DNA from: Micromonospora arborensis
GTDB taxonomy: Bacteria; Actinomycetota; Actinomycetes; Mycobacteriales; Micromonosporaceae
Reading direction: 5' to 3'
Length of the DNA stretch: 64,000 nucleotides
Assembly: GCF_003205615.1 (NCBI RefSeq)
Contig: NZ_PYBV01000021.1
Coordinates: 62,001 to 126,000 of the forward strand
Each line of letters begins with the position of its first letter. Within the stretch, counting starts at the first letter, position 1. This document shows, piece after piece, positions 53,563-56,318 of this stretch. Under the pieces are notes generated by a model. It was not told the DNA's origin. It did not search any database and worked only from the letters and a program-made list of their open reading frames with translations. Made by a program: the position numbers and the translations under genes.

Positions 53563-53630
53563 GGTCACCAAGAGTAGGTACCGTGGAACTTTGGTAACAG
53601 CCACAACCGTTGCTTCCCAGAGGCGGAACG

Positions 53631-54095
53631 TTGCAGATAGACGCGGTAGACCAGCGGATCATTGCGTTACTCGTCGCCGACGCCCGTGCGTCGTACGCCG
53701 ACATCGGTACCCGGGTGTCACTCTCCGCCCCGGCCGTCAAGCGTCGCGTCGACCGACTGCGCGCCACCGGTGTGATCAGGGGATTCACGGCCGTGGTTGA
53801 CCCGGCCGCCGTCGGCTGGACCACCGAGGCGTTCGTCGAGCTGTTCTGCGCCGGACGAACCACCCCGGCGCAGATCGGTGTGGCCACCCGGCGACACCCG
53901 GAGGTGGTCGGCGCGTACACCGTCTCCGGGGAGGCGGACGCGCTCGTGCACCTGCGCGCCGCCGACATCGCCCACCTGGAGGCGGCGCTGGAGCGGCTGC
54001 GTGGCGAGCCCTTCGTGACCTCCACCCGCAGCACGATCGTGCTGTCCCGGCTGGTCGAGTCCCCCGGCGTGGGCCCGTCCACCCGCACCCCTTGA
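53631..54095 (+). CDS. Lrp/AsnC-family transcriptional regulator
   Basis: 154-aa regulator: helix-turn-helix at about 3-55 (VDQRIIALLVADARASYADIG, VSLSAPAVKRRVDRLRATG) and RAM/ligand domain (about 65-145; VVGAYTVSGEADALVHLRAAD). TTG 53631 has AGGCGG upstream and gives the family-typical start LQIDAVDQRI; a longer frame opens at 53610. Lies head-to-head with the dimethylargininase gene and probably regulates it in response to an amino acid. Confidence 0.9.
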   Translation: MQIDAVDQRIIALLVADARASYADIGTRVSLSAPAVKRRVDRLRATGVIRGFTAVVDPAAVGWTTEAFVELFCAGRTTPAQIGVATRRHPEVVGAYTVSGEADALVHLRAADIAHLEAALERLRGEPFVTSTRSTIVLSRLVESPGVGPSTRTP

Positions 54096-54122
54096 CCTCA
54101 ACCCAGGTTGAGGAGATGGACT
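54092..54122 (+). promoter_or_regulatory. SoxR-type operator in a stretched promoter
   Basis: CCTCAACCCAGGTTGAGG (54096-54113) is a perfect 18-bp palindrome of the SoxR-box type. It lies between -35 TTGACC (54092-54097) and -10 TGGACT (54117-54122), spaced 19 bp, the elongated spacing typical of MerR-family activation. It drives the oxidoreductase at 54168. Confidence 0.8.
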
Positions 54123-54167
54123 GGCCCGAAGCGTGGGCGGGCCGCCCACCACAGTCGAGGGGATGTC

Positions 54168-55121
54168 ATGCGAGCAGTCTGGTTACGTGAGTTCGGTGGA
54201 CCCGAGGCGCTGGTGCCCGACGCGGCGCCCGACCCGACGCCCGGCCCCGGTCAGGTGCTGATCGACGTCGCGCACGCGAACATCACCTTCGTCGAGACGC
54301 AGCAGCGCTCGGGTCGCCCCGGGCCGTTCCAGGTCACCCCACCGCTGATCCCCGGCAACGGCGTGGGCGGGCTGATCGCCGCCGTCGGGCCGGACGTCGA
54401 CCCGGCACTGATCGGGCGGCGAGTGGTCAGCGCCACCGGCGGATCCGGCGGATACGCCGAACGCGCGGCAGTGGACGCCGCCGCGCCGTTCGAGGTGCCC
54501 GCCGGGTTGGCGCTGGACGAGGCGGTGGCGCTGCTCGCCGACGGGCGTACCGCCACCATGCTGGTCCAGGCCGTCGGCGTCCGCCCCGGTGACCGGGTGT
54601 TGGTGGAGGCCGCCGCGGGCGGCGTGGGCAGCCTGTTGGTGCAGCTCGCGGACCAGGCCGGCGCCCAGGTGATCGGCGTCGCCGGTGGGCCGGGCAAGGT
54701 GGACCTGCTACCCGGCCTCGGTGCCGACCTGGCGGTCGACTACCTCCTGCCCGACTGGGCCGACCGCGTCCGTGCTGCGCTGGGCGGGGTCGACGTGGTG
54801 CTCGACGGGGTCGGCGGCGCGGTGGCCCGAGCGGCCTTCGACCTGCTGACCCCGGGCGGCCGCATGATCAGCTTCGGGTTGGCGAGCGGGCAGTGGTCCC
54901 CGGTGTCGCCCGAGGCCGCCACGGAACGGCAGGTCACCCTGGTCCGACCGGACGTGCCACCCGCGCAACTGCGGGCGTACACCGAACAGGCCCTGGCGGA
55001 CGCGGCAGCCGGCCGCCTGCGACCGCTCATCGGCCAGCGCTTCCCGCTGGAGCGCGCCGCCGACGCGCACGCCGCCATCGAGGCACGCGCGACGGTCGGC
55101 AAGACCCTGCTGGACGTCTAA
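54168..55121 (+). CDS. Zinc-binding/quinone oxidoreductase (MDR family), SoxR target candidate
   Basis: 317-aa NAD(P)H-dependent medium-chain reductase: GroES-like N-terminal half (PTPGPGQVLIDVAHANITFVE, IPGNGVGG) and a Rossmann half with VLVEAAAGGVGSLLVQLADQ (about 145-165) and VVLDGVGG. It lacks zinc ligands, as expected of quinone oxidoreductases. The promoter carries a SoxR operator, matching the known SoxR control of such reductases in Streptomyces, so it likely handles redox-active compounds. ATG follows GAGGGGATGTC. Confidence 0.92.
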   Translation: MRAVWLREFGGPEALVPDAAPDPTPGPGQVLIDVAHANITFVETQQRSGRPGPFQVTPPLIPGNGVGGLIAAVGPDVDPALIGRRVVSATGGSGGYAERAAVDAAAPFEVPAGLALDEAVALLADGRTATMLVQAVGVRPGDRVLVEAAAGGVGSLLVQLADQAGAQVIGVAGGPGKVDLLPGLGADLAVDYLLPDWADRVRAALGGVDVVLDGVGGAVARAAFDLLTPGGRMISFGLASGQWSPVSPEAATERQVTLVRPDVPPAQLRAYTEQALADAAAGRLRPLIGQRFPLERAADAHAAIEARATVGKTLLDV

Positions 55122-55213
55122 GGCCTGTTTCACAAGGGCGGTCGAGCCGAGGCGGAGTCCGGGCGGCGGTCCGGGCCCGCCGCAGGCCGGCCAGTTCTTA
55201 TGAAACAGGCCTT
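55122..55213. terminator. Long inverted repeat between convergent genes
   Basis: AAGGCCTGTTTCACAAG on the left and its near-exact complement, ending GAAACAGGCCTT, on the right (one mismatch in 17) flank about 58 nt, much of it GC-rich. The arms abut both stop codons. A second copy of the right arm is at 371-403. Confidence 0.7.
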
Positions 55214-56318
55214 ATAGATACATGCCGGTGCGGTGCTCCGACTCGTCGCGCCGGACCGGCTTGTCGCCCTCGCCGAAGAACCGCCTGCCACCGAACTCGC
55301 CGTGCAGACGGTCGTCCAACTCGTCGGCGAGACCGGTCATCACCTGCACCGCCAGCATGAGGTGGGTGGCCTGGAAGTTGCGGCCGAAGACCGGAATGGA
55401 CGCCCAGACCGTGTCGTCGGCGCAGTAGAGGCGGCCGATCGGCATCCGGTTGGTCAACTCGGAGAGCTTGACGTAGAGCCGTTCGGTCGGCTCCACCTCC
55501 GTGAGCACCGGGGAGAAGACGTCCACCAGAGGCGGGTTGTCCCGCACCCGCACGAAGACCATCGCCGAGCCCGCGCGGATGGTGATGTCGCCGTCCGAGT
55601 CGATCTGCAACCGGTCGGTGTCCGACTTCAGCATCGTGGAGACCACGGTCCGAACCCGATCCGCCAGGTCGAGCACGTCGTCCCGCTCGACCTGCGCGGC
55701 GGCGGCCTCCGCCAGCGCCTCCTCCAGGTCGGCCTCGACGTCGGCGTCCGGGCCGAACTCGCTGCGCGCGGTGCCCAGCGGGTCCACGGCCAGCGGCTCA
55801 CCCTCGGTGTCCTGCACCAGATAGACGAGGAACGCCGGGTGCGGGGCGCCATAGACGTCTCGCAGCGTGCGGGAGAGCAGCGCGGCGATCCGGGTCGACT
55901 CGGCCGTCGTAGCGTCCAGGCCGAAGGAACCACCGGAGCCGGCGACCACCCCGGGTGGCGACCAGCCAAGCGCGATCATGTCCGCCACCGCGCTGCGGTC
56001 CAGTCGGTAACCCGCCGGCAGGGCGGCGTTTCCGACCGCCCGGGCGGACAGCCCACCGTCGTCGTTCACGTCGACGCTGATCGAGTAGACGGCATCCCCG
56101 GTCCCGGAGGCGGTGGGGTCCAGGGTCAACTCCAGGTGCGTGCCGACCGGAAGTTCCCGCAGCCGCACGGCGAGTGCCCGGGCGAACTCCCGCCACGCCT
56201 CGGTCACCTTCGCCCGCAGGTCGGTGGTGCTGGGTTCGTCGAGCAGGATCGATTCTGCCGGCTCAGCCGTAGCGCCGGGCAGCTCATCCTGCGGCGCCGA
56301 GGGGTGGTCAGCCGTCAT
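55212..56318 (-). CDS. YbjN/T3SS-chaperone-like domain protein with HbYX-like C-terminus
   Basis: 368-aa soluble protein. After an acidic, Pro/Ala-rich head, the middle has TEAWREFARALAVRLRELP and LGWSPP, and the C-terminal half has the YbjN/TY-chaperone pattern: VSTMLKSDTDRLQIDSDGDI, RAGSAMVFVRVRDNPPLVDV, LYVKLSELTNRMPIGRLYC. This fold binds unfolded peptides. The last residues are TGMYL; hydrophobic-Tyr-X at the very end is the proteasome-docking motif also seen in Bpa (GQYL), which may be coincidental. The stop lies within the terminator arm. Confidence 0.8.
   Translation of the reverse strand: MTADHPSAPQDELPGATAEPAESILLDEPSTTDLRAKVTEAWREFARALAVRLRELPVGTHLELTLDPTASGTGDAVYSISVDVNDDGGLSARAVGNAALPAGYRLDRSAVADMIALGWSPPGVVAGSGGSFGLDATTAESTRIAALLSRTLRDVYGAPHPAFLVYLVQDTEGEPLAVDPLGTARSEFGPDADVEADLEEALAEAAAAQVERDDVLDLADRVRTVVSTMLKSDTDRLQIDSDGDITIRAGSAMVFVRVRDNPPLVDVFSPVLTEVEPTERLYVKLSELTNRMPIGRLYCADDTVWASIPVFGRNFQATHLMLAVQVMTGLADELDDRLHGEFGGRRFFGEGDKPVRRDESEHRTGMYL

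Follow-up and report, generated by a model that had tools for sequence, protein, structure and literature searches.

The window analysed here, a 64-kb stretch of Micromonospora arborensis (C97:62001-126000), carries on its plus strand a gene (54168-55121) for a 317-aa zinc-binding-dehydrogenase-like (MDR) oxidoreductase, a putative quinone oxidoreductase placed by Pfam, TIGR02824 and its PDB relatives. Upstream on the same strand, the ORF list and Pfam place an ORF for an Lrp/AsnC-type regulator (53610-54095), whose TGA stop codon (54093-54095) falls within the -35 hexamer of a promoter at 54092-54122. The oxidoreductase ATG (54168) stands 45 bp past the end of this promoter. The likely ribosome-binding site, judged by its placement, is GAGGGG (54157-54162), which ends 5 bp short of this codon.

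The promoter and the gene behind it

The promoter combines the -35 hexamer TTGACC (54092-54097), read directly from the sequence, with the -10 hexamer TGGACT (54117-54122), placed from the columns of aligned orthologue promoters. The hexamers and the 19-bp spacer between them (54098-54116, TCAACCCAGGTTGAGGAGA) are as the initial annotation described. A predicted SoxR-type operator, CCTCAACC-CA-GGTTGAGG, occupies 54096-54113 as a dyad of 8+2+8 layout, recognized from its sequence and from its retention in orthologues. This 18-mer, CCTCAACCCAGGTTGAGG, had been called a palindrome lying exactly between the hexamers; its two 8-bp arms are indeed perfect, but the 2-bp centre CA is not palindromic, and the first two bases of the dyad are the last two of TTGACC. 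Soxbox promoters are defined by hexamers 19-20 bp apart, and here an 18-bp dyad with CCTCAA and TTGAGG half-sites is set between hexamers 19 bp apart, with the -10 of the orthologues equally distant. TTGACC, the dyad and TGGACT form a MerR-type promoter, and the site is real. A generic sigma-70 scan allowing only 16-18-bp spacers called no promoter in 53900-55300, as expected for a 19-bp spacer.

Even with three mismatches allowed, the pattern CCTCAACCNNGGTTGAGG matches the window once, and that match is perfect; shuffled windows gave a mean of 0.36 matches at up to three mismatches, with at least one match in 31 of 100. The genome-wide search for further copies that the initial annotation proposed left the window site as the only perfect CCTCAAN6TTGAGG in 7.3 Mb.

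The enzyme itself carries the Pfam domains ADH_N, ADH_zinc_N and ADH_zinc_N_2, and its PDB relatives bear the names oxidoreductase or quinone oxidoreductase. The ADH_N/ADH_zinc_N pair fits the original label of quinone oxidoreductase, but the score against TIGR02824 (quinone_pig3) is 169.6 bits, under the cut-off of 296.8. The label therefore reflects homology alone, and the enzyme is related to the PIG3 family without being filed as a member. A long hairpin at 55120-55214, with arms AAGGCCTGTTTCA and a folding energy of -75.2 kcal/mol (z -7.6), begins at the oxidoreductase stop codon and lacks a T run; one further copy of its arm is found on another contig (C115).

Conservation of the box

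A protein search of the genus gave oxidoreductase matches at E 1e-60 or better, paralogues included, in 113 of 160 genomes. Orthologues were taken at 68% identity or above; duplicates, matches shorter than 140 aa and genes starting no more than 40 bp from the end of a locus were excluded. The box assigned to each was the best-matching site no further than 150 bp from the start. All 86 orthologues so defined keep the box with at most three mismatches in 16 positions (0, 1, 2 and 3 mismatches in 26, 24, 21 and 15, respectively). The partial orthologue G041 and most paralogues of about 47-56% identity lie outside this count, as do six listed homologues below 68% identity, which were left out because they have the box by selection.

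For the 85 of these 86 orthologues with sufficient flanking sequence, the aligned promoters average 1.49 bits of information per column in the region spanning -35 to -10, whereas the upstream flank averages 0.27 and the downstream flank 0.21. TTGAC is present in all 85 and is followed by C in 98%, the box and -35 columns being favoured by the picking of sites for their match to a consensus that contains TTGACC. The -10 columns, which played no part in picking, hold T, A, C and T at positions 1, 4, 5 and 6 in 99%, 86%, 91% and 99% of promoters at the fixed distance, with the first T and the last T each kept in 84 of the 85. Mismatches, of which at least one occurs in 60 of the 86 orthologue boxes, fall mainly in the right half-site. 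The left half-site is almost invariant (CCTCAA 62, CCTGAA 13, others 10; n=85) and the right half-site varies (TTGAGG 35, TTCAGG 16, TTCATG 11, TTCACG 7, others 16).

Beyond this set, the 80 best of 486 named relatives were compared, nearly all of them Actinomycetota by name. A box within three mismatches precedes the gene in 63 of them and is missing from the other 17; 20 shuffles of each gave none. A few of these 80 are genomes also among the 86, and the query alignment included paralogues found via their boxes, which may bias the figure. The strict form of the box, TTGACCTCAAN6TTGAGG with all 16 defined bases matched, is present in 92 of 160 genus genomes and 154 of 394 class genomes, and the same string read backwards occurs in 0 of 160 and 0 of 394.

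SoxR and its association with the box

The initial annotation had made its case depend on a MerR/SoxR homologue in the genome and, seeing no soxR in the window, had assigned control in trans. One SoxR is encoded (C97:48492-48905, minus strand), 67 kb from the promoter on the same contig as the window, which bears out both points: it scores 198.8 bits against a TIGR01950 cut-off of 116.9, carries the CX2CXCX5C cluster motif (CIGCGCLSLQRC) and has E. coli SoxR (2zhg, 154.8 bits) as its best PDB relative. MerR-type matches to PF13411 number 23 in the genome, and the runner-up against TIGR01950, at 48.8 bits, lacks the GNQRRY stretch found in SoxR.

The recognition helix of the resident SoxR reads SALRYYE, that of E. 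coli SoxR SALHFYE, and all 19 SoxR proteins beside strict boxes read S(A/T)LHFYE. The SALR(Y/F)YE form is found in the resident protein and in eight similar SoxR from relatives, and in the myxobacterium Hyalangium a SoxR of this type stands divergent from an oxidoreductase homologue with the box TTGACTTCAAGTGAACTTGAAG. Arginine in the helix is compatible with the box, since SoxR-like proteins that lack the cluster motif and stand beside eight strict boxes read SAIRFYE. The resident SoxR is likely to bind the window box. Its own promoter holds a different palindrome, GTTGAAGTGCACTTCAAC (22-bp perfect, GAGTTGAAGTGCACTTCAACTC, at about 1938-1960 of locus L039), and similar palindromes precede several other soxR genes of the same kind in the genus. 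Convergent with soxR and adjoining it is a second quinone oxidoreductase-like ORF (L039 458-1432), which at 442.7 bits passes the TIGR02824 cut-off of 296.8.

SoxR is present in 158 of 160 genus genomes. A single SoxR match is present in 63 of the 86 orthologue genomes, more than one in 22 and none in 1; G035, a draft of about 560 contigs, has the orthologue with its box and no SoxR match. Where both genes are listed on one contig (58 genomes), the distance between them is 56-98 kb, with a median of 68 kb; additional soxR copies such as that of G130 are left out of these figures. In the wider class, by tables of co-occurrence and soxR counts compiled by hand from search listings, the strict box is found in 152 of 236 SoxR-positive and 2 of 158 SoxR-negative genomes (n=394), which leaves 84 SoxR-positive genomes with the strict box missing. 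Restriction to genomes of at least 4 Mb gives 135 of 204 with SoxR against 1 of 25 without, and within a single genus (g2) the box is present in 15 of 21 genomes with SoxR and in 0 of 7 without it (Fisher p 0.0014, ignoring relatedness); such p-values are not independent tests because the genomes are related.

Physical adjacency adds to this picture. The 128 strict genus sites are distinct sites, one palindromic place being counted on both strands, and 11 of them lie no more than 700 bp from a MerR-type ORF. Each of these ORFs is divergent, and its helix motif is located 70-86 bp upstream of the box; three encode SoxR with the cluster motif and eight encode SoxR-like proteins without it. At all 16 class loci picked for closeness, the box adjoins a gene for a cluster-motif SoxR, which is divergent in 15 cases and in the remaining one stands in tandem, followed by the box. 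Since these loci were picked by box-soxR closeness among the matches listed, they establish that adjacency exists and not how frequent it is. Strict boxes thus adjoin soxR genes at 19 loci (3 genus and 16 class). A divergent partner is no general rule for the oxidoreductase, an idea rejected on finding a MerR-type ORF within flanks of up to 1.5 kb in only 3 of the 80 named relatives (best 80 of 486), one of these being a cluster-motif SoxR.

The eight cluster-less SAIRFYE proteins (L055, L056, L070, L074, L075, L190, L212 and L220) end before the Fe-S cysteines and are divergent from NmrA-like genes, and the box beside them is CCTCAACAATTGTTGAGG in all except L220. They are possibly redox-blind relatives that use the SoxR box. 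Because they adjoin 8 of the 128 strict sites, the box alone is no proof of a redox-sensing Fe-S regulator.

Proposed SoxR control, its alternatives and other candidate targets

We consider 54092-54122 to be a SoxR-controlled promoter of the downstream MDR-family oxidoreductase, at a probability of roughly 85%, with binding and induction predicted from sequence comparison. Such control was the central proposal of the initial annotation, and it is supported by the box in 86 of 86 orthologues and in 63 of 80 named relatives (best 80 of 486), and by the way in which the box follows SoxR across the class. The argument for activation by SoxR joins the conserved box and spacing, the SoxR of this genome, the co-occurrence in the class, the adjacency of boxes to soxR genes and the precedent in Streptomyces coelicolor (PMC4146615).

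In mechanistic terms, hexamers 19 bp apart would be too distant for good engagement by RNA polymerase. A SoxR dimer, encoded 67 kb away on the same contig, would occupy the dyad, and oxidation of its [2Fe-2S] cluster by a redox-active compound would be the activating signal. DNA distortion by SoxR and MerR proteins is established, and oxidised SoxR would similarly distort this site, bringing the two hexamers into alignment and allowing transcription of the oxidoreductase gene. The substrate that the enzyme reduces is probably quinone-like or a related redox-active metabolite.

Known systems offer close parallels. The E. coli soxS promoter has a CCTCAA-N6-TTGAGG dyad that overlaps the -35 hexamer and a 19-bp spacer. 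The window promoter is like it in each of these respects, but differs from it in the inner bases (CC..GG in place of G..C). The two SoxR proteins are likewise homologous and share the cluster motif; they differ in the recognition helix, and the predicted Micromonospora target is an enzyme gene directly. In S. coelicolor, EMSA is reported to show SoxR binding at the promoter of the putative quinone oxidoreductase gene SCO0320ext, whose expression requires SoxR, and the regulon consists of transporters, including an ABC transporter, and redox enzymes (PMC4146615). The Streptomyces precedent invoked in the initial annotation is therefore real and includes a gene of the kind found here. The window promoter would be another case of this known arrangement, in which a promoter with the common SoxR layout carries a soxbox and precedes a gene for a putative quinone oxidoreductase, and Micromonospora box genes also comprise transporters and redox enzymes. 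The same study reports a soxbox in only 23% of SCO0320ext homologues over the 55 Streptomyces species surveyed, and a frameshift in SCO0320ext in S. coelicolor (PMC4146615); in Micromonospora, by contrast, the reading frame is intact and all 86 close orthologues have the box within three mismatches, the two genes being compared by description. Homologues with boxes occur in other Streptomyces among the named relatives. SoxR of Stenotrophomonas maltophilia is reported to act directly on the MFS transporter gene mfsA (PMC4411124), and an MFS gene is likewise the commonest strict-box neighbour in the genus Micromonospora (46 of 128), although phylum and gene differ and the window target is not of this kind.

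Other explanations must be weighed against control by SoxR. The box could be bound by another MerR-family regulator, either a cluster-less SoxR-like protein or a paralogue with another ligand, so that the gene would answer a different signal. The eight strict sites beside cluster-less proteins divergent from NmrA-like genes lend this some substance, as does the resident recognition helix, which is unlike those of the SoxR proteins beside boxes. It is nonetheless unlikely: the best TIGR01950 match in the genome after SoxR reaches only 48.8 bits and lacks GNQRRY, a MerR-type ORF is near the gene in only 3 of the 80 named relatives (best 80 of 486; one a cluster-motif SoxR), and the presence of the box tracks SoxR across the class. 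A MerR gene near an ABC transporter (L017) was rejected as the binder, as its own promoter lacks such a box.

Regulation by the upstream Lrp/AsnC-type protein, or transcription mainly by read-through from its ORF, is suggested by the adjacency and shared strand of the two genes and by a search for a terminator-like site in 53900-55300 that found none. Such an origin is highly improbable, given that the kept element matches MerR-type promoters in its half-site spacing and its 19-bp geometry and that the same box stands before unrelated genes; basal read-through from the Lrp/AsnC-type ORF is possible and compatible with SoxR control. That the dyad arose by chance and is functionless has a negligible probability and is ruled out by the footprint in orthologues, all 86 of which have the box within three mismatches, and by the reversed-pattern controls in 160 genus and 394 class genomes.

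Micromonospora is a major source of antibiotics. SoxR control of the oxidoreductase would extend the antibiotic-linked SoxR response of Streptomyces to this genus, with a highly conserved predicted target. Within the titles and abstract openings listed for literature naming both SoxR and Micromonospora, no study of a SoxR regulon in the genus was found.

The analysis also yields a set of candidate SoxR promoters. The genes behind the 128 strict genus boxes are mostly of three kinds: 46 encode MFS transporters, 36 the oxidoreductase or homologues of it, and 13 plus 3 NmrA-like proteins. These counts come from gene calls that used a home-made score, with MFS and NmrA labels taken from Pfam scans of single representatives. 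The NmrA-like products are NAD(P)-binding proteins, other box genes include MFS and ABC transporters, and a cluster of 155-aa proteins (6 box genes) had no Pfam family match in the one member scanned. In the M. arborensis genome itself, most other box-like sites are, by number, attributable to chance, with 50 forward matches at up to two mismatches of 12 against 77 for the reversed control, and 7 and 7 matches at up to three mismatches of 16 against 5 and 3. Eleven places besides the window site were inspected. Three were kept, in which a box with one or two mismatches is followed at 19-bp spacing by a -10-like hexamer and then closely by a gene.

The first of these, before an ABC transporter gene (C165:43894-43915; L272/L415), has one mismatch, with TAGCCT 19 bp on. 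At the loci of the 30 top matches drawn from 81 genomes, 18 of 18 close orthologues have the box with one or two mismatches, against five to eight mismatches in 12 of 12 paralogues (61-63% identity). A second box, with two mismatches, precedes an MFS transporter gene (C97:221250-221271; L273) about 105 kb from the window site. The protein matches the 46 box-gene products of this family at 49-91% identity, and the support for this site consists of those 46 strict sites before homologous genes in relatives. In several MFS homologues the distance from the first base of the box to the start codon is just 37-38 bp.

The third precedes a second nickel superoxide dismutase gene, sodN (C123:39061-39082, minus strand; L274/L365), whose product matches Pfam Sod_Ni, and reads TTGACATGAAGCTCGGTTGAGG-TTC-TAGCGT with a 19-bp spacer. 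It is kept at 30 of 30 loci (the best 30 matches, own included, from close relatives), with two mismatches at 23 and three at 7, and 600 shuffles never gave fewer than five. The universal sodN copy lacks the box in 4 of 4 genomes checked, with four or five mismatches. The CATGAA/TTGAGG pair of the second sodN mirrors the CCTCAA/TTCATG pair seen in oxidoreductase orthologues (TTCATG is the right half-site in 11 of 85), and this mirror relationship suggests one reader for both.

We put forward, at even odds, that one SoxR, with an altered helix that also accepts CATGAA and TTCA-type half-sites, joins detoxification and export (the oxidoreductase, MFS and ABC genes) with superoxide removal by the second sodN, which would place a superoxide dismutase gene under direct SoxR control outside enteric bacteria. 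SoxR is named among the regulators of E. coli sod genes (PMC3919588), and the titles and abstract openings listed for SoxR together with sodN or nickel superoxide dismutase in Streptomyces held no report of SoxR control of sodN. Should SoxR indeed control the second sodN, it would be necessary to qualify the view that in antibiotic producers this regulator serves the response to redox-active metabolites and not superoxide defence. Two further box-like sites with three mismatches lie just before genes (C135:61325, L280; C194:198564, L284) and could be weak SoxR-type promoters or chance matches.
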